Shown piece by piece: positions 25,910 through 40,867 of a stretch of 64,000 nt of DNA. Position 1 is the stretch's first letter. The number at the start of each line of letters is the position of its first letter. A model generated the notes under the pieces. It was not told the origin of the DNA. It made no database searches and saw nothing but the letters and a program-made list of their open reading frames with translations. A program made the translations under genes and the position numbers. This DNA comes from an uncultured Eubacteriales bacterium (GTDB lineage Bacteria; Bacillota; Clostridia; Peptostreptococcales; Anaerovoracaceae). The stretch is from contig CADAEH010000006.1 of the NCBI GenBank assembly GCA_902786855.1, positions 1 through 64,000 on the forward strand. Direction: 5' to 3'.

Positions 25910-28619
<2,710 letters not shown>

Positions 28620-30200
28620 CTATACTCCGCTGGCACCATAGTTGGAAAGGACCCTTGCAGACGGATCGTTTACATCGCATCCTTCCCATTCTTTATTAGG
28701 CATCCAGAAATCCACTATCATCCTGGCCTGCCTTGGATAGTATTTCTCGAAGATGTCGCGGTACAGGAGTGATTCCTTGGTAAATGGTACCGCATAGTCA
28801 TAGCGTCTGCACCCTGCCTCGAACTCTTCGTCAGTATAGACGGTCTCCGCATATTCCTTCAGATCATCTACCATCGAATGTCCCACAGCATCAGAAAAAG
28901 CTGCCTTTTCTCTCCAGAGGATCTCGTCAGGCAGGTAGTCTCCCTCGAATGCTTTTCTCAGCAGGTATTTCCCTTTACCATACCTGTTCATCTTCAGTTC
29001 AGGGTCGATCGACATGACATACTGTACAAAATCCAGATCTCCGAACGGCACCCTGCCCTCAAGGCTGTTTCCTGAAATGCATCTGTCTGCTCTCAGCACA
29101 TCATACATGTGCAGCTCCCTCATGCGCTTACAGGATTCCTTCTGGAACTCCTCTGCAGACGGAGCAAAATCAGTGTACTTGTATCCGAAAAGTTCATCGG
29201 ATATCTCTCCTGTCAGTATCACTCTCAGGTCTGTATTCTCATGGATCGCTTTGCACATCAGGTACATGCCCATCGATGCTCTGATCGTCGTAATATCATA
29301 TGTGCCGAGCAGGTAGATCACTTCTTCGAGAGCATCAAGGACATCCTGCCTGGTCATGATCACCTCAGTATGATCACTGCCTATGTAGTCGGCAACGATC
29401 CTTGCATATTTCAGATCGATCGGGTCTATATCCATGCCAACTGAGAAAGTCTTTATCGGCTCACTGCTCTCTTTCGCGGCTATCGCACATACCAGTGAGG
29501 AGTCGAGTCCTCCTGACAGCAGGAATCCTACCCGGGCATCGGCTACCAGTCTCTTGCTCACACCTTTTATGAGCTTTTCCCTGATATTTCTGAAGATCTC
29601 ATCCACATCGTCCGATATGTACCCATCGACTTCCGTGACATCACGGTAACGGATGAAGCCCCCGTTCTTCCAGTAGTGCCCGGGCGGAAACGGCATTATC
29701 CTGCCGGTGATACCAATAAGGCTCTTAGGCTCGCTGGCAAAAGCGATATTGCCCTCCTTATCGTAGCCATAATAAAGCGGTCTTATCCCGATCGGGTCCC
29801 TGGCTGCAATGTACTCTCCTGTGTTTTCGTTGTACAGAACACATACGAATTCCGCATCCAGCATTCTGAACATATCTGTACCGTATTCGAAGAACATCGG
29901 CAGCAGGATCTCGCAGTCGGAACCTGACCTGAAAGTATATCCCATAGACTCCAGCTCAGATTTGATCTTTTCAAAACCATAGATCTCTCCGTTACAGATC
30001 ACCTTCCATCCGGCCATCTCAAACGGCTGCATGCCTTCCGGCGTAAGACCCATGATAGACAATCTGTGGAATCCCATTATTCCGTGTGTGTTTTGTATTA
30101 TCCTTGTATCATCAGGACCTCTGTATTTTGTCTTCGCAAAAGCTTTCCCGAACTCTTCCGGAGTGACACAGTTTCCTGTAACAGCCATTATCGTGCACAT
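28620..30200 (-). CDS. asnB: Asparagine synthetase, glutamine-hydrolysing
   Basis: A product of 526 residues. The N-terminal nucleophile Cys2 follows Met (MCTIMAVTGN), with KYRGPDDTRI and GFHRLSIMGL of the class II glutaminase domain. The synthetase domain has the ATP pyrophosphatase loop FLLSGGLDSSLVCAIAA (about 230) and later DELFGYKYTDFAPSAEEF. It makes asparagine from aspartate, ATP and glutamine. It lies 15 bases after glnN, which supplies its glutamine, and 9 bases before pyrG. Confidence 0.95.
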   Translation of the reverse strand: MCTIMAVTGNCVTPEEFGKAFAKTKYRGPDDTRIIQNTHGIMGFHRLSIMGLTPEGMQPFEMAGWKVICNGEIYGFEKIKSELESMGYTFRSGSDCEILLPMFFEYGTDMFRMLDAEFVCVLYNENTGEYIAARDPIGIRPLYYGYDKEGNIAFASEPKSLIGITGRIMPFPPGHYWKNGGFIRYRDVTEVDGYISDDVDEIFRNIREKLIKGVSKRLVADARVGFLLSGGLDSSLVCAIAAKESSEPIKTFSVGMDIDPIDLKYARIVADYIGSDHTEVIMTRQDVLDALEEVIYLLGTYDITTIRASMGMYLMCKAIHENTDLRVILTGEISDELFGYKYTDFAPSAEEFQKESCKRMRELHMYDVLRADRCISGNSLEGRVPFGDLDFVQYVMSIDPELKMNRYGKGKYLLRKAFEGDYLPDEILWREKAAFSDAVGHSMVDDLKEYAETVYTDEEFEAGCRRYDYAVPFTKESLLYRDIFEKYYPRQARMIVDFWMPNKEWEGCDVNDPSARVLSNYGASGV

Positions 30201-30215
30201 TTTGTCCCTCCTTCT

Positions 30216-32306
30216 CTACTTTTCCCCGAACAGCAGCAATCCATAGTTCGGAAGCGGCCAATACTTTTTGGATGTCAGCTTTTCCGCGGCATCGCTGTCT
30301 TCTCTGAGTCTGCACATTTCCGGAAGCAGCTGATCACGAATGATCTCAGCATCACGGAAATAGTCCTCGCCGCTGAGGGAATCCAGAACACTTACCATTT
30401 TCTGAACATCAAAGTATATCCTGTCTGTTCTCGATGACAGTTCCCTGATTATTTCTTTTTCAAAGCTACACTCCAGATCAGGGATCGCACGCTTCTTCTC
30501 ATTCATATTCGCTGACAGCTCTGCTGCATAGCCCTCAACAGCAGGGGCGATCCTCTTGATCGCCATGGATCGCATCGTCCTGGCTTCTATGCATATGGTC
30601 TTACAGTAGTTCTCAAGCATGATCTCACATCTTGACTCAAGCTCTGACCTGCTGAATACGCCCAGTCTTGTAAGCATCGCCACATTTTTATCGTCAAGAA
30701 GATGCGGCACACAGTCCGGAGTCGTCCTGTAGTTGGATAGTTTCCTCTTTTCCGCTTCTATAAGCCACTCATCTTCGTATCCGTTCCCGTTGAAGATGAT
30801 CCTCTTATGGTCACGCACGGTCTCTCTTATCAGCCGGTATGCTGTCTCATTTGAGTCCTCTGCTCCTTCCAGTTTCTCTGCAAATGATTCCAGAGCATCC
30901 GCGACCGCACTGTTGAGTATCACATTAGGGAAGGCCAGACTGCTCATCGAGCCCGGCATCCTGAATTCGAACTTATTGCCCGTAAAGGCAAACGGAGATG
31001 TCCTGTTTCTGTCAGTGTTGTCTCTTCTGAATCCCGGCAGCACTCTGGTACCGAGCTCCATAAGCACCTTTCTGCTGTCTTCATAAGGTATGTCTTCCTC
31101 TATTGAGTGCAGGACGGCCGTCAGCTCATCACCGAGAAATATCGAAATGACTGCAGGCGGCGCCTCATGCGCACCGAGCCTGTGGTCATTACCCGCCGAT
31201 GCGACCGATATCCTCAGGAGGTCCTGGAAATTGTCGACTGCTTTGATGACAGCGCACAGGAACAGCAGGAACTGCACATTGTCATGAGGTGTCTCTCCCG
31301 GCGCCAGGAGATTGTCTCCCCTGTCAGTCGAAAGAGACCAGTTATTATGCTTGCCGCTGCCGTTGACTCCGTCATAAGGTTTCTCATGCAGCAGCGCTGC
31401 GAATCCGTGCCTTTCAGCGACCTTTCTGATCATCTCCATCACGAGCTGGTTCTGATCTACCGTCACGTTTACCTTGGTATATATGCATGCAAGCTCATGC
31501 TGGGACGGCGCTACCTCATTGTGTTCCGTCTTGGCAAACACACCGAGCTTCCACAGCTCTTCATTCAGCTCTTCCATGAACTTCGCTATCTCAGGCTTGA
31601 TGGCCCCGAAATAATGATCGTCGAGTTCCTGCCCCTTAGGCGGCATCACTCCGAACAGAGTCCTTCCTGTGAATCTAAGGTCAGGCCTTTTCTCATAGAG
31701 GTCGATCGGAACAAGGAAATATTCCTGTTCTGCTCCGGCTACCGCATGTACTCTCTTTACTGTTGTATTGCCCAGCAGTTTCAGCACTCTCAGTGCCTGA
31801 TAGTTCAGCGCATCCATGGACCTCAGCAGCGATGTCTTCTCATCCATTGCTTCGCCGCTGTAGGAACAGAACGCGGTCGGTATGCACAGTGTCTTGTCTC
31901 TTATAAATGCAAAAGACGTAGGATCCCATGCCGTATATCCTCTGGCTTCAAAGGTCGCCCTCAGGCCGCCCGAAGGAAACGACGATGCATCAGGCTCACC
32001 CTTTATGAGCTCCTTCCCGGAGAAGTCCATGATGACTCCTCCGTCAGGAGACAGCTGTATGAAGCTGTCATGCTTTTCTGCCGTAACTCCGTTGAGCGGC
32101 TGGAACCAGTGTGTATAATGTGTAGCCCCGTTGGAAACGGCCCAGTCTTTCATGGCCTGCGCAACTGCATTGGCTATATTCTGATTCAGAGGTTCTCCCC
32201 GGTTGATCGTATTCCTCATTGAGCGATAGACGTCAGCCGACAGCATTGATCTCATCACTTTGTCATCAAATACCATCGATCCGAAATAATCAGATACTTT
32301 ACTCAT
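30216..32306 (-). CDS. glnN: Glutamine synthetase type III (GSIII/GlnN)
   Basis: The start MSKVSDYFGSMVFDD (32304-32306) has AGGAGGT 7 bases upstream. The product is 696 residues, matching the large GSIII family of Bacteroides, Clostridia and some cyanobacteria. Diagnostic stretches are HYTHWFQPLNGVTAEKHDSF, AGAEQEYFLV, EHNEVAPSQHELACIY, YDGVNGSGKHNNWSL and GNDHRLGAHEAPPAVISIF. It condenses glutamate, ammonia and ATP to glutamine. As first gene of glnN-asnB-pyrG-ilvE it sets the glutamine supply for the operon. The upstream 140 bases are AT-rich with a TTGAAA/TTTCAA palindrome that could be an operator. Confidence 0.95.
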   Translation of the reverse strand: MSKVSDYFGSMVFDDKVMRSMLSADVYRSMRNTINRGEPLNQNIANAVAQAMKDWAVSNGATHYTHWFQPLNGVTAEKHDSFIQLSPDGGVIMDFSGKELIKGEPDASSFPSGGLRATFEARGYTAWDPTSFAFIRDKTLCIPTAFCSYSGEAMDEKTSLLRSMDALNYQALRVLKLLGNTTVKRVHAVAGAEQEYFLVPIDLYEKRPDLRFTGRTLFGVMPPKGQELDDHYFGAIKPEIAKFMEELNEELWKLGVFAKTEHNEVAPSQHELACIYTKVNVTVDQNQLVMEMIRKVAERHGFAALLHEKPYDGVNGSGKHNNWSLSTDRGDNLLAPGETPHDNVQFLLFLCAVIKAVDNFQDLLRISVASAGNDHRLGAHEAPPAVISIFLGDELTAVLHSIEEDIPYEDSRKVLMELGTRVLPGFRRDNTDRNRTSPFAFTGNKFEFRMPGSMSSLAFPNVILNSAVADALESFAEKLEGAEDSNETAYRLIRETVRDHKRIIFNGNGYEDEWLIEAEKRKLSNYRTTPDCVPHLLDDKNVAMLTRLGVFSRSELESRCEIMLENYCKTICIEARTMRSMAIKRIAPAVEGYAAELSANMNEKKRAIPDLECSFEKEIIRELSSRTDRIYFDVQKMVSVLDSLSGEDYFRDAEIIRDQLLPEMCRLREDSDAAEKLTSKKYWPLPNYGLLLFGEK

Positions 32307-32448
32307 ATCATGAACCTCCTTTCTTCTCATACCCTGCACATTGCTCTGATCGTGCAGCCTGAATTGAAAAACTTATTTCAACAATATCCCTGCCGGATTT
32401 ATAAATGAAATACATATATCTTTTGTATTATCATATTTTCCGCATATC

Positions 32449-32495: not shown

Positions 32496-33599
32496 TCACC
32501 TGATATTATCTGCAAAGACTTCTGCCTGCCTGTCGATATCCGATATCTCAAGTATGCTCATCGGATCATTCGCAGTTTCATTCATCACGAATCTCCCGGG
32601 CAGTATGAATCCCTTGTTGAAATTCAGCGCTCCGATGATCTGTTCCGATACGATGTCTCCTCCGCTGTAGCCGGATACAACAAGTGCATACATACGCTTT
32701 CTGCTGAAGTCATGTACCCGGAAAATCGATGTAAGTCTGTTGATGAACGCTGTGAGATTGGCATTCAGAGCATCGTTATAGTTCGGACATATCATAACGA
32801 GCACGTCACAGTTTATTATTGCCGGGTATACCTGCTCAGTCATGATCCCGCCGTAAAAGCATTTGCCGTTTTCCCCGAAATGGAAGCATTGCTCGTATCC
32901 ACAGCCTCTGCATTCCTGCAGATTACCCTCTCTGAGCGAGATCTCGGTTATCTCTGCCCTGTCTTCGAGATTTTTCCTGACCTTATCCCACAGAAGAAGG
33001 GTGTTCGATGTCTTTCTTGAGCTGGCATGGACCGCAAGTATCTTAAGCTTGTCTCCCGCTGCAGCCGTATCAGAGAAGTCAAAGTCCATGACCCGGCGGA
33101 CAAGGCTCTCCATCTGCATGGCATAGACAGTCTCGGGAGATTCTCCGGTGACGCCCGATAATACATGAAAGTTCCCGAGCGAACCGGTAGCCTCTACAAG
33201 CGGTCTTCCCGGAAGCGTGCAGCCTGCGGCATTGATGGTGAACGCCAGTCTCCTGGCGAGAGCTTTCGTGAAAAACTCCCCTTGCCCATCCACTACAATG
33301 CCGCCGGCAGCTCCCTCAAGGAAGTCCGGCCTTGCCCGGAAAAACTCTAGCAGCCTGTAATACTCCATGTTTACACCTGCTTCCGAAAGGCTGATCGCGA
33401 ATATTATGCGCTTTCCTTTCAGCGCAATATGATCGAGCTCCGACGCCTTTTCAACAAGCGTGATCTCTACCCCTTCGCCGGCGAGAGTTTCAAGGATGCC
33501 CTCCAGGATGTTTTCCATCCTGCGGTTCCATTCCTGAAGCTCGCAGATCGGCCGTATTACAGTAATACTCCTTTTTTCTTTCTCAGTCCCGATCGTCAT
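32496..33599 (-). CDS. Cys-rich flavoprotein, NADPH-dependent FMN reductase family with an extra N-terminal domain
   Basis: A product of 367 residues, about twice the usual length. Residues 185-367 look like the NADPH-dependent FMN reductase/iron-sulfur flavoprotein fold: LAVHASSRKTSNTLLLWDKV (FMN phosphate loop) and ICPNYNDALNANLTAFINRL. A Cys cluster C230-x2-C233-x4-C238-x8-C247 sits where Isf-type proteins hold an iron-sulfur cluster. Residues 1-180 form an additional flavodoxin-like or dehydrogenase-like domain (RIIFAISLSEAGVNMEYYRL). It is the last gene of the LysR-fusion operon. A role as electron donor to a neighbour product is possible but inferred. Confidence 0.7.
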   Translation of the reverse strand: MTIGTEKEKRSITVIRPICELQEWNRRMENILEGILETLAGEGVEITLVEKASELDHIALKGKRIIFAISLSEAGVNMEYYRLLEFFRARPDFLEGAAGGIVVDGQGEFFTKALARRLAFTINAAGCTLPGRPLVEATGSLGNFHVLSGVTGESPETVYAMQMESLVRRVMDFDFSDTAAAGDKLKILAVHASSRKTSNTLLLWDKVRKNLEDRAEITEISLREGNLQECRGCGYEQCFHFGENGKCFYGGIMTEQVYPAIINCDVLVMICPNYNDALNANLTAFINRLTSIFRVHDFSRKRMYALVVSGYSGGDIVSEQIIGALNFNKGFILPGRFVMNETANDPMSILEISDIDRQAEVFADNIR

Positions 33600-33663
33600 C
33601 TTTTTAAAAGATCTTCCTTATCAAAAGATCCGTCCGCCCTGCATACAGACCTTTTGTCCCCGT

Positions 33664-34656
33664 CTATCTTATCCTGCACAGATTCCTGTAAGACTCGAGT
33701 ATTCTCTCATACAGACTGTCCGGGAGAGGTACGTCCTCATATTCAAACCCTTCTGCAGTCAGTCTGTTCTTTACGCCCATAAAGGCTCCTTCTGTCCGGC
33801 TGCCCATGTATACCGATCCGTAGTGCCACTCTCCCCTTAAAGTAAGCAGTATCGATACAGCAGCTGAAGATATCGCAGGCGCGATGTACGGCTTGAAGCC
33901 CAGTTCACGCACCTTCAGGTTGGCATTTTTCGCAAGTTCGGTCAGATGCAGTGAAGCATTCTCGTCATAGTGCTCTATGCTGTTGGCTATGACAAGGTCC
34001 TGACCGTGCGGACCGAATGCTCTTCCCTCTGAGGCATACAATGTTTCGGCAGCATCAGATGATCTTTCGGCATAATACAGAGCTCTCATGTTCATCACTC
34101 CGAGTCCGTACCCCTGGATCTGCCATGGTTCCAGTCCTGCCTCATCGAGGAATGCTGCAGCCAGATTATCCACAGGATCACTGACCACCGCTACCATCCC
34201 CTTGTATGCGGCTTTCTTCGCAAGGTCAGCATAATGTTTTATTATTTCCCTGTTCGCCTCAAGCTGTACCATCCGGACATCGATCTTTTCGCCGCCGTCA
34301 TCTGCTGAAACAGGAGGCACGCCTCTGCTGGCGCAGAATATGAGCAGATCACAGTCAAAAAGAGTGTCCTCATCAAGAATGCGTACCGGAGGCAGATCAT
34401 GTGTGCCGAATGGATAACCGATCTGATTGATCTCCATCTCAAGACGCTCAAGGTTCTCAGGGCGTATATCCAGGATCCCGATCTCAGAAACAACGTCACT
34501 GCCCAGCAGCCTGAGACCTATGAGCATCGTTGTCCCTACATCTCCGAGCGCAAGTATGTTCACTCTGTTTTTTCCATTCAGGATAACCGGGCATCCTCCC
34601 GCTCCTGTCACTTCCTCTATTCCATTATCCCGAGGCAGCTCGTGCAGATATCTCAT
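33664..34656 (-). CDS. Lactate/malate dehydrogenase-like NAD-binding protein (atypical)
   Basis: A product of 330 residues with AGGAG before ATG 34656. The pattern VNILALGDVGTTMLIGLRLL, SEIGILDI, CDLLIFCASRG, VVSDPVDNLAAA and FGPHGQDLVIANS follows the LDH/MDH order: Rossmann loop, acidic ribose-binding residue, the V-T-N-P-x-D motif and the catalytic-His G-x-H-G. Several positions depart from the family: GDVG replaces GxGxxG, and SDPVDN replaces TNPVD. The catalytic His remains. The substrate specificity may therefore differ from lactate or malate. It lies 17 bases after the 1573-residue fusion gene and 64 bases before the flavoprotein gene. Confidence 0.7.
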   Translation of the reverse strand: MRYLHELPRDNGIEEVTGAGGCPVILNGKNRVNILALGDVGTTMLIGLRLLGSDVVSEIGILDIRPENLERLEMEINQIGYPFGTHDLPPVRILDEDTLFDCDLLIFCASRGVPPVSADDGGEKIDVRMVQLEANREIIKHYADLAKKAAYKGMVAVVSDPVDNLAAAFLDEAGLEPWQIQGYGLGVMNMRALYYAERSSDAAETLYASEGRAFGPHGQDLVIANSIEHYDENASLHLTELAKNANLKVRELGFKPYIAPAISSAAVSILLTLRGEWHYGSVYMGSRTEGAFMGVKNRLTAEGFEYEDVPLPDSLYERILESYRNLCRIR

Positions 34657-34672
34657 GTGTTACTTTCTCCTG

Positions 34673-37600
34673 TCAATTCTCATGATACTTGCCGAAAAGG
34701 AACATCCTCTTCAGCCTGCGTATCTCATTATCTATATACACTGACGGCGCGATCCGGTCATTGTAATCGATCCCTTCTCCGAGAAGCGGCCTTCTGGGAT
34801 TGGTGAGCACAGCCGGAAGTCTTTTCATCGTGAGTTTCTTTCCAAAAGTTATCTGGTATTCCTGCTCAAGCACCCTCATGATATCCGCCGTGTTTTCAAG
34901 GCATGTCAGCGAATATCTGTAAATGTTTTCCGGCTTTCCTTCTCCGATGAAGCTCAGTCCCGTGTATGGCAGGATCAGATTTACGGATTCCTGCCTGCGC
35001 GTCTGACCGTTCTGCCATTTCCCTTCTGCATCCTTCGGTGGATCGATGCTGTCGCCTCCTATGAAGGGATAACAGTCTCTCTCGTTGAGCCACATGCTGA
35101 TGGAAGGCAGGAAGTACGCGCATTGTGTATCTATGCCTGCCAGACTCATCCTGTCTCTGGCATTTCCCGTCAGCAGTCCTACTATCACTCTTTTGATCTC
35201 GACACCATGTTTCTGGAGGACAGACGCGACTTTTTCCATCCTCTGCCCGGAATGCAGCAGGTCGTCTATCAGCATGACAGGCCTGCAGAATGAATGGATA
35301 GTCTCTGCCTGCTCGTCGAGAGACAGGTAGTTTACGATCTCTCTTACATCAAAACTCTTAAGGTCATTCGACAGATACTTTTCCGTCCTGAGAGCTTTCG
35401 TTACAGTGTTTGGCACTACAATATCCGAAAGAGCTTTGCTGAACGGGACTGCAAGGTAAGGACCTCTCCGCCTGAGCGGATCCGCCGCAGTCGTGACCCC
35501 ATTGGTCTGTGTGGCAAGGTCTATGATTCTGCTGTAAACAGCACTGGTGTTATACGACAGCAACAGTCTGCCGGGATATATCTCACGCAGGACCTTGAGC
35601 AACTGATAATGTGCACTGTCGAAAGCTTTCTGGACACGCTCGTTCTTGCTCAGCGGCGCCTTGATGACTGTATCAGCATCGCGGAAGAGAACTATAGGGT
35701 TTCTCATATCCACAGCGTAGACCGGGCGCTCCGGATCATCAGATATATTGATAAAGCCCTGACGCTCCAGTATTCTCTCAGCAAGAGGATCCGCTGCCTT
35801 TCCGCAAACAGGATGGAACACTGCGTACGAATAATCTCTTGCCGCAAGCAGCGACAGCAGTTCCGTAAGCAGTATCTGCCTGATATACGACACGTTTTCA
35901 CCGCCGCTGACATACAGAGCTCCTATGACTGCGATCTCACCTCCGCAGTGGCTCCTTATGTATGATGCTATCCGGATATCTCCGAACTCTTCAATGAGGT
36001 CGCTGGTCCTTATCCTTTTTGCTCCTGCAGCAGCAGACAGCCTGAGTTCAGGCGTCTTGATGATCACCTTCCTGATGTCTTTTCTGGAAAGGTACTCAGT
36101 CAGTGTATCGTTTATCCCCTCTGTTTCACCGAGTTCTCTGATGAAATACTCTTCATCTGTTCCGCTGGTATCGTCTCCCGGCTCATACGTATAGATATTG
36201 AGTTCCCTTGCCTGCAGCTCATGCTTGTAGGCCGGCTGCCTCAGATACAGGTCATTGTCATAGATGTAATTCTGTGCTGCAGCATCGATAAGGTCTGATA
36301 TATCCCTGCCAAGGTCGACGTTCTCACGGATCCTGGTGGAACTTATATCCTCATAGAACTTATCAAGGTTCAGCCTGATGACTTTGCCGCTGATCGGGAA
36401 TATCTCGCCGTCGGCATCGAGTTTCCTGGCTTCGCGGGCGAAAACTATGTGATTGAATGTGTGTATGGAATCCGGCTCAGGTTTTTTTCTGTATGCAGAA
36501 GCATTGAGCACTACATCAGAACCGACTGCTATATACAGTTCCTGTCCTGTGAAAAGGTCTTTCAGTTTTCTCAGGTCAGCTGTATTCGCTATGTTGACCG
36601 GAATATCGTCAGGGAACAGATACAGTCCCTCTTCATCAGCGACCGACATCTGCAGGATCTTCTTCCTCAGCATATGCGGCAGTGTCTTTTTGGACCATGA
36701 GAACTCATCTATCGCAAGATAGACATCGAAGCCCATATCTCTGATCGTTGTCGCGATAGCTTTGTGCCCAAGGCTGAACGGGTCGAATGTGCCTGGGAAG
36801 AAAACTGCAGGCTTCTCTGGTGCGAAATCCGGCATTCCTATCTCTGTCCTGAATGCCGTGATATATCTGTACACATGATTGAGTGCAGCCGCATTATTAT
36901 AGAAGTCGATCTCATCTGAATCCGCGGCTTCCGGCATCAGCGTAAGCAAGCGCTTGAAACAATGTGAAGCTATCGTCCTTTTCTCTTCGACAGAAAGGAT
37001 CTTGCTTGCGAAGATATGCTCCCCGATCGCCCTGACAGCCTCTCTCGATATTTCTGCCCTGTAATACGCGGCACCCTTGATGAGCAGACCCAGCATGTGG
37101 TTCATCCGCTCTGTATCCCCGGTCCCGAAATGTTCAAGCGTGACCGCGATCGTGTTGATCGCAGCTTCAGCTGAACGGTCATTGCCCGAATCTATCATCT
37201 TTCCGAGCTCATATATGACCTCATCAAACTCATTCAGATCGAGATGAAGGAGAACAAGCCCAAGGTAGTCCGGTATAAGGCCGGAAAACTGGTAGTCGCT
37301 GAGTTCGAGGCCGTTATGCAGCTCTATCATCAGCTCATTGACCTGATCCTTTGCCATTCCGCCTATGATGTCCAGAAGGCAATTCCCCGCGGCCCTTCTC
37401 ACCGTTACGGTTTCACTGACCTTGATCAGATTGGAAAAGTGAGTGGCTATCTGCATCAGCATGTTTTTGTCATGGCTTCTTTCTGCTTCCTGTTTCAGTA
37501 TAGCGATGTTTGCCATTTTCATATTCCATGTTACATGCAGTTTGAGGTCATCAAGAAACATCGATGATCTCTGCTCATCGGTAAGCTGACCGTCTCCAAG

Positions 37601-39394
37601 GCCCAGCAGCTCTCTTCTGCGCTTATCTCTTTCATCAGACGTGATGAAGCCATAATGCTCAAGGACTTCAAGAGTTATCAGGTCGACACTGACGCTGTGT
37701 TTTCCCATCACCGCATCTGTAAAGGCTGCCAGAACAGATCTGAAACTTTCAGTACAGAAGGCAGCATCCATCCTGAGAGCCGTTATCATCAGAACAATGA
37801 TCTTTTCCTCGACCTCAGCATGAGAGCCCCCGGGAACATGTGTCTCATTCAGGTAGTAGTCCGGCTCATAGTATTCCTGCAGGATATCGTAGTATCTGTG
37901 GCGGCATGACGGTCTGCAGTTCTCTGTTACAGAGCGTACGAAGAAATCCGTACTTGCCGTGATCCACTTTCTGTGGATATCCGTGTATTTCCGGTCAGGC
38001 TCAAGGAACAATGCGATATACTCTCTGAACATCGACAGATTGCTCACGTTATCATCAGGTGCAGGAACATCCTGCGGGAGTTCCTTCTTATATTCCTCGC
38101 GGTATTTTGCAACAATATATCCCATGACCAGGGCAGTCTGCTCCCTGATATCGCTCTCGTGATGTCCGAGCATGTCATACAGGAATTTCAGAACGGCCGA
38201 TTTCTGACTGTCGGTCATATATGCCGAATACTCTTTGAAAATACTTATATAAGTCCGTATGTTTTTCCAGTTGGTCTCGCTCCTTGCCGACTCGATCAGG
38301 CTCGCGAACTGCCTTTCGTTTCCGAACCTGTTCATGACACGGATATTGTGATCTATCGCCCGGAACTTGATCTGTTCCGTCACGTTCCTGCGGTCGAGCA
38401 GGACCAGTTCCCGGTGCAATGGTTTTACCGGCAGTGGGCAGTCCTCAGGATAGCTGTCCCCAAGGTCATCGATCTCAGTGTGTACCCCATGCTCGATCAT
38501 ATAGTCTTCGAAGTCTTTCAGTTTTTTGTATACCCTGATGTATCTGAGCCTTTTCGCTTCATCAACATTGTCGAGCTTGCTGAGGATAACGTCGAAAGCC
38601 TGAGCAAGGCTGTAGAAGTGGATGATCTCCTCTCCGTTCTCTCTGGTGCTCTTTGTCCTGAAATCCGCGTAGATCAATATAAGGGATTCTGCTGACAGAT
38701 CTTCAAGCTCAAGATCCCATGTAGAGTGATTGGCGGCCGTGTGCGCGATCTGCCCGAGGCCCAGCCGTCTCAGGCAGTAGTCTGTGTAATAATAATGAAG
38801 ATAAGGGACCCGCCTCTCTTCATGCTCTCTGCAGCCGTATTTCCCTATATCGTGAGAAGCTGCAGCTGCTGATACAAGACCGAGGTCGACCGGAACACCT
38901 GACGCATAGAGCTGCTTTGCAACATACATCGCAACATAATGGACTCCGCCTATGTGTCCCACTGTATTGAACGGAGTTATATCAGCGCCGATGCGCATGA
39001 ACTCATACACATGCATTTCGCGTATCAGTTCCTTCATTCTCAGATATTCCGGGATGAACCCGTTTTCAGTTATCTCCTGTCCGGAAAGCAGGCAAAAGTC
39101 CCTCTTCGGATCAAAACTGCAGTGCATCCTCTCGTATTCATATGCATGACGCATGAAATCCAGGAGACTGTTCCTTCCGGTCCTGAAAGTTTCTTCGTCT
39201 GAAGGTCCCGGGATATGAGGAAACAGCTGATTTCTCAGATACATATATGTATGCATCAGCCAGCCGTCCTGCGGTGCTGCTGATCCGCTCAGAGTTTTTC
39301 CTCCCGCTTTTTCCAGCCACAAATCAAGGATCTGATCCGCGCGCAGCCTTACTCCTCTTTCCGCTTCTTCCTGAAGTATCTCTATATCAGTCAT
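34673..39394 (-). CDS. Giant fusion: HD phosphohydrolase - helical repeats - NadD-like nucleotidyltransferase - phosphoribosyltransferase
   Basis: A 1573-residue protein with a GAGGATAG site before ATG 39394 and no signal peptide. An HD domain spans about 140-290 (H147, H152, ASHDIGKYG with H181-D182, H218, H223). Residues about 340-850 are helical and HEAT-like. A nucleotidyltransferase of the NadD/cytidylyltransferase superfamily follows at about 862-1050, with FFPGTFDPFSLGHKAI (T/H-x-G-H variant SLGH, H877) and DISSTRIREN (1016-1025). Residues about 1090-1235 are an unclear alpha/beta region, perhaps acetyltransferase-like (LLAARDYSYAVFHPVCG). A phosphoribosyltransferase-like domain spans about 1240-1500, with PRPP loop PVMLIDDLLHSGQRM (1372-1386). 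HD (YqeK) and NadD genes are neighbours in many Bacillota, so a role in NAD or nucleotide metabolism or repair is inferred. I know no characterised protein of this layout. Confidence 0.8.
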   Translation of the reverse strand: MTDIEILQEEAERGVRLRADQILDLWLEKAGGKTLSGSAAPQDGWLMHTYMYLRNQLFPHIPGPSDEETFRTGRNSLLDFMRHAYEYERMHCSFDPKRDFCLLSGQEITENGFIPEYLRMKELIREMHVYEFMRIGADITPFNTVGHIGGVHYVAMYVAKQLYASGVPVDLGLVSAAAASHDIGKYGCREHEERRVPYLHYYYTDYCLRRLGLGQIAHTAANHSTWDLELEDLSAESLILIYADFRTKSTRENGEEIIHFYSLAQAFDVILSKLDNVDEAKRLRYIRVYKKLKDFEDYMIEHGVHTEIDDLGDSYPEDCPLPVKPLHRELVLLDRRNVTEQIKFRAIDHNIRVMNRFGNERQFASLIESARSETNWKNIRTYISIFKEYSAYMTDSQKSAVLKFLYDMLGHHESDIREQTALVMGYIVAKYREEYKKELPQDVPAPDDNVSNLSMFREYIALFLEPDRKYTDIHRKWITASTDFFVRSVTENCRPSCRHRYYDILQEYYEPDYYLNETHVPGGSHAEVEEKIIVLMITALRMDAAFCTESFRSVLAAFTDAVMGKHSVSVDLITLEVLEHYGFITSDERDKRRRELLGLGDGQLTDEQRSSMFLDDLKLHVTWNMKMANIAILKQEAERSHDKNMLMQIATHFSNLIKVSETVTVRRAAGNCLLDIIGGMAKDQVNELMIELHNGLELSDYQFSGLIPDYLGLVLLHLDLNEFDEVIYELGKMIDSGNDRSAEAAINTIAVTLEHFGTGDTERMNHMLGLLIKGAAYYRAEISREAVRAIGEHIFASKILSVEEKRTIASHCFKRLLTLMPEAADSDEIDFYNNAAALNHVYRYITAFRTEIGMPDFAPEKPAVFFPGTFDPFSLGHKAIATTIRDMGFDVYLAIDEFSWSKKTLPHMLRKKILQMSVADEEGLYLFPDDIPVNIANTADLRKLKDLFTGQELYIAVGSDVVLNASAYRKKPEPDSIHTFNHIVFAREARKLDADGEIFPISGKVIRLNLDKFYEDISSTRIRENVDLGRDISDLIDAAAQNYIYDNDLYLRQPAYKHELQARELNIYTYEPGDDTSGTDEEYFIRELGETEGINDTLTEYLSRKDIRKVIIKTPELRLSAAAGAKRIRTSDLIEEFGDIRIASYIRSHCGGEIAVIGALYVSGGENVSYIRQILLTELLSLLAARDYSYAVFHPVCGKAADPLAERILERQGFINISDDPERPVYAVDMRNPIVLFRDADTVIKAPLSKNERVQKAFDSAHYQLLKVLREIYPGRLLLSYNTSAVYSRIIDLATQTNGVTTAADPLRRRGPYLAVPFSKALSDIVVPNTVTKALRTEKYLSNDLKSFDVREIVNYLSLDEQAETIHSFCRPVMLIDDLLHSGQRMEKVASVLQKHGVEIKRVIVGLLTGNARDRMSLAGIDTQCAYFLPSISMWLNERDCYPFIGGDSIDPPKDAEGKWQNGQTRRQESVNLILPYTGLSFIGEGKPENIYRYSLTCLENTADIMRVLEQEYQITFGKKLTMKRLPAVLTNPRRPLLGEGIDYNDRIAPSVYIDNEIRRLKRMFLFGKYHEN

Positions 39395-39424
39395 CTACCC
39401 TATCCTCATACTGTTCACGCTGCA

Positions 39425-40318
39425 CTATTCCTGCACCTGTCCGGACACCATGTCCCTGACATAATCTATGAATTTTTCCTCTATCGTCGGCAACGGATGT
39501 CCTTTCAGCCAGACGAACAGGTACTCCATTTTCTTGTCTTCTCCTGCTATTTCCTTGAATACCAGAGAGTCATTAGGGATGTACGCTGTTCTCGGATATA
39601 TGCTTATCCCTACCATTCTGCCTGCGAGCGCAGCAGCATCAAGGTAGCTGTCCATCTCGCATACTATCCGCGGCTCCGCATCAGCATTTCGGAACCATTT
39701 ATAGATAGTATCGATCAGTGCTCTTCTGCTTGGCACGATGAGTTTTTCACCTGCCAGTTCAGAAATATCTATGCTGTCTCCCTCCCTGGCCGCCAGAGGA
39801 TGCGCGCTGTTCATCAGCGCGGCTATCTTCTCTTCACCGACATGAAAACTATGGAGCAGTGAGTTGTCACACGGGGATGTTATAACTGCAAGACTTATGA
39901 GTCCGCTTCTCAATTTTTCAAGCAGATCATCGGTGCTGCCGTCCAGGATCCTGAACCGTATATTCGGGTACAGGTCAAGAAAACCGGCAAACCACTCTGC
40001 TGCTATATCCGGAGCCATTCCTTCGACAAGACCAATGGAAATAGTCCCCCGCATGCCTTCTCCCATAGAGTGGATCTCTGACTGAGTCTTTTCCGCAAGG
40101 CTCAATATCTCCTTGGCCCTCCTGTAAAGCATCTGCCCGGATTCTGTCAGCTTGAGTCTCCTCTTTCCCCTGATGAAAAGCTCAGTATCGAGCTCCTCTT
40201 CAAGCCCCTTGATCTGTGCGCTGAGCGGAGGCTGACTCATGTGGAGTTTTTCCGCAGCTCTTGTTATATTCAGCTCTTCGGCCACTGTTATAAAATATCT
40301 CAAAGTTCTCAGGTCCAT
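39425..40318 (-). CDS. LysR-type transcriptional regulator
   Basis: The start MDLRTLRYFITVAEELN (40316-40318) fits the family; a longer frame to 40360 is unlikely. The product is 297 residues, standard. Residues 1-60 are the winged helix-turn-helix (ITRAAEKLHMSQPPLSAQIK), and residues about 90-295 form the effector-binding domain (GTISIGLVEGMAPDIAAEWF at its start). The gene lies 30 bases before the giant fusion gene in the same direction with no terminator between, so it is probably the first gene of that operon. LysR proteins usually act on a divergent or their own promoter; the nearest candidate region is 40319-40453. The effector is unknown. Confidence 0.9.
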   Translation of the reverse strand: MDLRTLRYFITVAEELNITRAAEKLHMSQPPLSAQIKGLEEELDTELFIRGKRRLKLTESGQMLYRRAKEILSLAEKTQSEIHSMGEGMRGTISIGLVEGMAPDIAAEWFAGFLDLYPNIRFRILDGSTDDLLEKLRSGLISLAVITSPCDNSLLHSFHVGEEKIAALMNSAHPLAAREGDSIDISELAGEKLIVPSRRALIDTIYKWFRNADAEPRIVCEMDSYLDAAALAGRMVGISIYPRTAYIPNDSLVFKEIAGEDKKMEYLFVWLKGHPLPTIEEKFIDYVRDMVSGQVQE

Positions 40319-40453
40319 CTCCCGACCCCCCGTTTCAGATGTATTCCGGATCAAAATCATATAGGAATTGTATAAAAAGAAGCAGCCTTACAACAAGACT
40401 GCCCGTAATACATATAACATTAGCGTTATCATACGTAAAAAATATGATAAGTG

Positions 40454-40867
40454 CTACCGCATTTCTTTTACCTTATTTTCTATCTCCTGCAGCTCTTCCG
40501 GCGTAAGCTCGGTGAGATGCTCCATCTTGTCGAGGAAGAGTTTCAGAGTCTCCTCTTCTCTTCTGTGTACGACTTCAAGATAGTAGCTGACGACTGTACC
40601 TGAGAACATCGCAACTATAACGATCTCATATATAGTTGTTATTACCGTGAGAAGTCTGCCGATAAAGGTGACTGCAACGATGTCCCCGAAACCGATCGAG
40701 GTCGAAGCCACGAACATATACCAGAGTGCATCGCCCAGTCTCGTGATGCCCGGTTCTGTGATCAGCACGAGAAATGACGCCAGCGCATACCAGGCAACGA
40801 ATCCATACAGCACCTTATCGAAGTTTATCCTTTTTATCACTTTCCAGAGAAGTCTCAGTTTCTTCAC
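40454..40867 (-). CDS. Two-helix potassium channel protein
   Basis: A product of 137 residues. Hydrophobic segment 1 (about 20-38), a pore helix with selectivity filter TSIGFGD (about 55-61, the TVGYGD equivalent), and hydrophobic segment 2 (about 68-95) make the KcsA/Ion_trans_2 layout. The C-terminus is a charged helix (RREEETLKLFLDKMEH then TPEELQEIENKVKEM), likely a tetramerising coiled coil. There is no RCK domain, so gating is not by NAD or Ca2+ through this chain. It sits 38 bases after the YolD-like gene. Confidence 0.85.
   Translation of the reverse strand: MKKLRLLWKVIKRINFDKVLYGFVAWYALASFLVLITEPGITRLGDALWYMFVASTSIGFGDIVAVTFIGRLLTVITTIYEIVIVAMFSGTVVSYYLEVVHRREEETLKLFLDKMEHLTELTPEELQEIENKVKEMR

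Follow-up and report, generated by a model that had tools for sequence, protein, structure and literature searches.

Gene layout and conservation of the cassette

The window analysed here is a 64 kb stretch of DNA at the start of contig 6 (CADAEH010000006.1) in the 2.9 Mb draft genome of an uncultured Eubacteriales bacterium. Four of its open reading frames, all on the minus strand, encode a LysR-type regulator, a 1573-residue multidomain protein that we call BIG, a protein with the fold of lactate and malate dehydrogenases (LDH and MDH; hence the LDH-like protein) and a Cys-rich flavoprotein. Conservation shows that the genes for BIG, the LDH-like protein and the flavoprotein, together the cassette, are one functional unit. 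In scattered anaerobes the three genes are passed on together in nearly every case, with near-obligate linkage.

34673..39394, minus strand: BIG, 1573-residue multidomain protein with HD domain, HEAT repeats, NadD-fold adenylyltransferase, GNAT-fold domain and type I phosphoribosyltransferase (PRTase)-like domain
38663..38959, minus strand: HD domain of BIG, residues 146-244 (Pfam HD; H147, H181, D182, K185, N222, H223, D244)
36842..38392, minus strand: helical repeat region of BIG (HEAT-type), residues about 335-851
36242..36808, minus strand: NadD-fold adenylyltransferase of BIG, residues 863-1051 (GTFDPFSLGH, DEFSWSK, SSTRIR)
35702..36205, minus strand: GNAT-fold domain of BIG, residues 1064-1231, without acetyl-CoA loop motif
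35015..35677, minus strand: type I PRTase-like domain of BIG, residues about 1240-1460 (PNTVTK, VMLIDDLLHSG; Pribosyltran)
33664..34656, minus strand: LDH/MDH-fold protein with altered active site (Ldh_1_N above cut-off; profile match to LDH structures; invariant residues)
32496..33599, minus strand: Cys-rich FMN_red-like flavoprotein (FMN_red above cut-off; C230-x2-C233-x4-C238-x8-C247)
39425..40360, minus strand: LysR-type regulator adjoining the cassette, outside the conserved unit

Using profiles of the three families, with thresholds of E ≤ 1e-20 for the LDH-like protein and the flavoprotein and 1e-30 for the C-terminal half of BIG, we searched 196 genomes of the class and found all three families in the same 16 genomes, none in 180 and a subset in 0. 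All three genes were also present at 53 of 65 related loci, which are not independent: some of L059-L066 apparently come from genomes already represented among L008-L013. Nine of the 12 incomplete loci end early, <1.5 kb beyond BIG (L017, L034, L039, L044, L046, L053, L063, L067 and L072); the other three are L033, without a flavoprotein gene, and L068 and L070, each a solitary BIG gene. Among seven further loci the cassette was found in six, including L074 and L075, which have extra genes between BIG and the LDH-like gene; the seventh, L076, is a solitary BIG gene. Pairwise distances of the three families are correlated across 39 loci (Mantel r 0.89-0.92, a level reached in 0 of 1000 permutations), a correlation that common descent alone would also yield. 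No other neighbour cluster exceeds 9 of 49 loci. An earlier note on this DNA had included the LysR regulator in the gene set expected to be conserved. This expectation held for the three enzyme genes and failed for LysR, which matched in only four surveyed loci and adjoins the cassette only in L063 (81% identity), several loci being short upstream. Membership of LysR in the unit was therefore rejected.

A small ion-channel gene (Ion_trans_2) lies just upstream of the LysR gene, at 40454-40867 of the window. At Rfam gathering scores, no RNA match was found in window 26000-47000, and a scan of six of the 49 loci of BIG relatives yielded only T-box, SAM and 6S RNA, none immediately upstream of the cassette; riboswitch control was rejected on these scans. 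A phage or plasmid origin was considered and rejected: there was no phage match, and the sole record labelled as a plasmid (2.63 Mb) looks chromosomal. This record, plasmid pTPELB2 of Acetoanaerobium noterae (L058, NZ_CP154629.1), carries the cassette and is probably a mislabelled chromosome. A defence system was likewise rejected, the three cassette proteins having no PADLOC match.

Domains and active sites of BIG

Active sites were tabulated from 67 aligned BIG copies, with L046, L053, L065, L066, L067 and L072 left out as fragments, repeats or copies not added. The seven HD residues of the feature list are all identical in 66 of the 67, the exception being L069, which is without the domain. 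In structure searches, helical-repeat proteins are among the matches listed for the N-terminal half, and the adenylyltransferase region recovers the NadD fold, with NadD enzymes as its best fold matches. The NadD-type motifs, S/T-x-G/S-H and SS-x-x-I/L-R, are retained in all 64 non-solitary copies among those aligned. Within the first motif, Ser or Thr stands in for the first His, and many copies have Ser in the place of Gly. Minor variants of the adenylyltransferase motifs occur in L025 (DGFSWSK) and in L036 and L049 (SSIQLR). The loop that would bind phosphoribosyl pyrophosphate (PRPP) keeps both Asp residues in 65 of 67 copies, the second Asp being Asn in L023 and Thr in L079. Pfam Pribosyltran was matched by 17 of 36 BIG members at E ≤ 0.1, with a best E of 3.8e-4.

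The GNAT fold of residues 1064-1231 was recovered in the structure search. The Q/R-x-x-G-x-G/A pattern of an acetyl-CoA loop is found in just 6 of 67 copies, at offsets scattered from 8 to 122, and the GNAT-fold domain is therefore probably structural and inactive. This domain had been overlooked in the earlier note, whose remaining domain calls (HD, helical repeats, NadD-like and PRTase in BIG, then LDH/MDH-like and Cys-rich flavoprotein) are supported. No NCBIfam model scored above its cut-off in the three cassette proteins, which together comprise about 2270 residues.

The LDH-like protein and the flavoprotein

The profile of the LDH-like protein aligns with solved LDH structures, and the window copy passes the cut-off of Ldh_1_N while scoring far under the LDH/MDH family cut-offs. 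Across 34 aligned sequences the protein keeps the Arg, Arg and His positions of these enzymes as R128, R191 and H217. The catalytic His-Asp pair of lactate/malate dehydrogenase is nevertheless incomplete: the His is kept as H217, and the position of the Asp is Met188 in 34 of 34 sequences. The Asn of the LDH motif SNPVD is an invariant Asp160. In LDH numbering we take the kept residues to be Arg109, Arg171 and His195, and the replaced ones to be Asp168 (now Met188) and Asn140 (now Asp160). Additionally, the glycine loop that binds the dinucleotide contains an invariant Asp39, where solved LDHs have alanine, glycine or phenylalanine. Many members are about 415 residues long, versus 330, through an N-terminal extension. 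In the copies viewed, this N-terminal stretch (e.g. the first ~110 residues of L029:14427-15683) has an SRxSFxxS-type motif that is absent from the window copy.

The flavoprotein has a Pfam FMN_red domain and an N-terminal part without a good match; a profile search against structures gave no match at E ≤ 0.01. Its four Cys, C-x2-C-x4-C-x8-C, are invariant in 33 sequences, and we infer that it carries an iron-sulphur cluster.

Distribution

We identified 49 BIG relatives at 34-70% identity, the closest (70%) in sheep and goat gut bins labelled Mogibacterium, and a BIG at 71% identity in another genome of the same genus. Of 398 genomes of the phylum, 8 have full-length BIG, and strong matches (E < 1e-50) occur in 10 of 37 genomes of the same genus and 16 of 24 of the same order. 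The patchiness inside a single genus, where part of the genomes are incomplete, suggests repeated loss or transfer. Named records include Anaerovorax, Fervidicella, Alkalithermobacter, Peptoclostridium, Anoxynatronum, Tindallia and Atribacterota. The carriers are anaerobes, a sizeable share of which ferment amino acids.

Solitary copies and split activities

Some genomes contain a second, solitary BIG gene in addition to the cassette. L068 and L070 are such copies in genomes whose cassettes are at L069 and L071 (L067 is the same gene as L070), and the genome of solitary L076 has its cassette at L077. In genome G456 the activities appear to be divided between the two genes. The cassette copy (L069:8163-11393, 1076 aa) has no HD domain and an intact adenylyltransferase and PRPP loop, and the solitary copy (L068:6437-10090, 1217 aa) has the HD residues and the PRPP loop and a ruined adenylyltransferase. 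Of the three solitary copies, L068 and L076 have a degraded adenylyltransferase site. The split in G456 and the degraded L076 therefore indicate that adenylylation tends to accompany the LDH-like and flavin genes, which suggests that these two proteins depend on the adenylylation step in particular, whereas HD can act from a separate gene in trans. Solitary copies L070 and L076, in different genomes, are directly adjoined by a gene for an APH-family kinase (L070:5539-6474 and L076:10905-11843, 41% mutual identity), which may be a partner of the solitary form's own.

Relation to NAD synthesis

A canonical NadD above the TIGR00482 cut-off is present in 35 of 36 carriers, with none above it in G508. 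Scores against this model are 31.3-59.4 bits for the BIG copies of the 36 carriers versus 164.5-204.2 for canonical NadD, and the window BIG, at 42 bits, misses the curated threshold of 112.45. The canonical NadD of the source genome, at L003:1414-2028, adjoins what we take to be a small HD protein and an RsfS-like gene. Aligned by eye, its segment GFDSVVQIDTW corresponds to GSDVVLNASAY of BIG, so that the canonical Trp is replaced by Tyr. The model NF005519 (361 positions), presumably describing a NadD-YqeK fusion, matched BIG only at 864-1058, and no YqeK model was listed at E ≤ 1.

Since 35 of 36 carriers own a canonical NadD, the cassette does not serve housekeeping synthesis of nicotinamide adenine dinucleotide (NAD), and BIG as a replacement for NadD was rejected on the same count. 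The altered base pocket, together with the separate NadD, makes NAD itself unlikely as the product, which is probably another compound. The earlier note had suggested that one protein makes a nucleotide, adenylylates it and hydrolyses unwanted forms, in the service of NAD-like cofactor synthesis, repair or signalling. The conserved HD, adenylyltransferase and PRPP-loop motifs are consistent with these three activities. Synthesis of NAD itself is disfavoured, and repair and signalling roles are possible.

Neighbouring genes

Genes of nitrogen and amino-acid metabolism recur among the neighbours of the cassette. Glutamate dehydrogenase (GDH) is found in 6 of 37 locus clusters (Pfam-confirmed in L024 and L045) versus 0.25 expected from an assumed 2.6 Mb genome with 1.3 copies, an exploratory comparison, as are its Poisson values, GDH having been chosen after being seen. 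The GDH of L055 is a 102-residue piece apparently syntenic with L077, and L035 has a second, weaker GDH-like match. GDH as a fixed partner is ruled out by 46 whole genomes selected for the large gene, only 3 of which, all of one family, have it beside the cassette. In L074:7918-13236 and L075:7243-12446, the genes between BIG and the LDH-like gene are an ammonium transporter, on the opposite strand, and a three-gene glutamate synthase (Pfam-confirmed in L074). Serine dehydratase alpha genes lie directly upstream of BIG in L041, L047 and L080 (Pfam-confirmed in L080). In the window, the cassette is followed by a same-strand run at 25910-32339 that starts with glutamine synthetase III and continues with what we take to be asparagine synthase-like, CTP synthase-like and then branched-chain aminotransferase-like genes. 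L012 and L013 have the first three of these as well, upstream of their cassettes (the first in L013 being cut by the locus end). Another glutamate link is found in L054, where genes resembling those for 5-oxoprolinase subunits and a dicarboxylate symporter lie ahead of the cassette, within the ~4.1 kb upstream of 9869. A radical-SAM gene, presumably RlmN-like, follows the cassette in L028, L030, L031, L032, L033 and L048, five of them Atribacterota.

Glycine reductase is common among carriers. GrdB was found in 15 of 16 carriers versus 11 of 180 non-carriers among the 196 class genomes (Fisher p 1e-14, uncorrected for kinship). It is no obligate partner, because only 12 of 31 genomes behind other loci, many of them metagenome bins, have GrdB; a strict glycine reductase link was rejected on this second sample.

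Proposed function and alternatives

A single chain with PRTase, adenylyltransferase and hydrolase domains, next to which a protein of dehydrogenase fold and a flavoprotein are fixed, fits the making and handling of a dinucleotide. We tentatively propose, at somewhat less than an even chance, that BIG is an assembly line that turns out an NAD-like dinucleotide and to which two redox proteins are coupled. In the order and with the substrates proposed here, the PRTase domain would make a mononucleotide out of PRPP plus a ring compound, or bind one, and the NadD-fold domain would adenylylate this mononucleotide with adenosine triphosphate (ATP). By analogy with YqeK beside NadD, the HD domain might remove wrong or surplus product. 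The HEAT repeats and the probably inactive GNAT-fold domain would form a scaffold, and the LDH-like and Cys-rich flavin proteins would reduce, oxidise or use the product. A bolder form of the proposal, which we regard as unlikely, is that the cassette both makes and uses an undescribed NAD-like dinucleotide cofactor in fermenting anaerobes. BIG would build it from PRPP, a non-nicotinate ring compound and ATP, and the LDH-like protein, with its invariant Asp in the dinucleotide loop, would be its dedicated user together with the iron-sulphur flavoprotein.

Several observations weigh against the assembly-line proposal. The Pfam HD score of the window BIG is under its cut-off, as is its Pribosyltran score (18.7-20.1 bits versus 26.3). 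No PRTase structure is among the structure matches listed for BIG, where NadD and GNAT dominate and the PRTase domain was only folded with its neighbours; this domain could be a PRPP sensor and not an enzyme. The solitary copy L068 is without a Pfam match at E ≤ 1e-5, its HD and PRTase resting on motifs. Because solitary L070 retains an intact adenylyltransferase site without either redox gene, the coupling of adenylyltransferase to these genes is not absolute. The recurring neighbours come from nitrogen and amino-acid metabolism and not from cofactor synthesis. Finally, L033:14978-17328 is without the flavoprotein, the LDH-like gene being directly followed by the RlmN-like gene, and no flavoprotein match was found in 17.4 kb. 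L033 rules out a strict rule of three genes and, over the length of its contig, is a genuine exception, either a two-gene cassette or a loss in progress.

The main rival to the assembly line is regulatory nucleotidylation like that of GlnD, which we consider rather unlikely. The adenylyltransferase would attach, and HD would remove, a nucleotide on a partner such as the LDH-like protein or glutamate dehydrogenase according to nitrogen status; the HEAT repeats would hold this partner, and PRPP or NADH would serve as the signal. The helical repeats would suit protein binding, and the nitrogen-rich context (GDH, glutamate synthase with ammonium transporter, serine dehydratase and glutamine synthetase III) and the paired transferase and hydrolase keep this rival alive. 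It is countered by GDH standing beside the cassette in so few whole genomes of a single family. A Pfam search of BIG at E ≤ 1 found no GlnD-type nucleotidyltransferase and no ACT domain. The GlnD transferase belongs to another superfamily, and to our knowledge NadD-class nucleotidyltransferases act on small phosphorylated molecules, not proteins. We counted in its favour that GlnD joins a nucleotidyltransferase and HD with opposing activities and that PII modification is not reported in Firmicutes, both according to a 2015 review (PMC4285133).

BIG could also be a second, regulated adenylyltransferase for nicotinate or nicotinamide mononucleotide that serves the ordinary supply or repair of NAD; HD would then proofread as YqeK does, and the two redox proteins would repair damaged NADH. 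The fold matches to NadD enzymes point in this direction, and HD beside NadD is a repair pairing described in a published study (PMC9426524). The canonical NadD in 35 of 36 carriers, the 42 bits against a cut-off of 112 and the replacement of Trp by Tyr argue against it, and no NAD-pathway gene was recognised by eye among the neighbours listed, most of which were without a family search. Altogether this role appears improbable. Still less probable is a mainly non-catalytic complex in which the PRTase, LDH-like and flavin domains sense PRPP, NADH and redox state, and only HD, or HD and the adenylyltransferase, acts by altering an alarmone level. Such a complex would account for the loss of the catalytic Asp and the Asn to Asp change in all 34 LDH-like sequences and for a GNAT-fold domain without its cofactor loop. 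The HD, adenylyltransferase and PRPP-loop motifs retained in nearly all copies would, however, be needless for a pure sensor.

The cassette is kept together across Clostridia-like lineages and Atribacterota and appears undescribed, our literature searches having found no published description of the three-gene system. A new nucleotide cofactor, or a nitrogen flow regulated by nucleotidylation, if true, would change the view of how anaerobes of gut and sediment ferment. Direct tests are feasible, since the three families co-occur all-or-none in the class sample and one genome has separated HD from adenylyltransferase naturally.

Comparison with known systems

The nickel-pincer nucleotide (Lar) pathway offers a precedent in which a modified pyridine nucleotide is put to work on hydroxy acids; it differs in that the families listed for the cassette proteins include none from Lar. 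The LDH-like protein shares the fold and the Arg, Arg and His of L-lactate/malate dehydrogenases and departs from them at Met188, Asp160 and Asp39. GlnD resembles BIG in having a transferase and HD on one chain and some neighbours from nitrogen metabolism; the transferase of BIG has the NadD fold, presumably unlike that of GlnD, and its PRTase-like part and HEAT repeats are extra. NadD and BIG have a common fold. In BIG, Ser/Thr replaces the first His of HxGH, the SYT segment of solved NadD falls into an alignment gap and the Trp position is Tyr. The NadD-YqeK fusion of mycoplasmas (PMC9426524) is a tested precedent in which the HD domain destroys wrong dinucleotides. Like BIG, it joins a NadD-fold adenylyltransferase and an HD hydrolase on one chain; in BIG the HD domain is at the opposite end, about 600 residues off, and PRTase-like, HEAT and GNAT-fold parts have been added.

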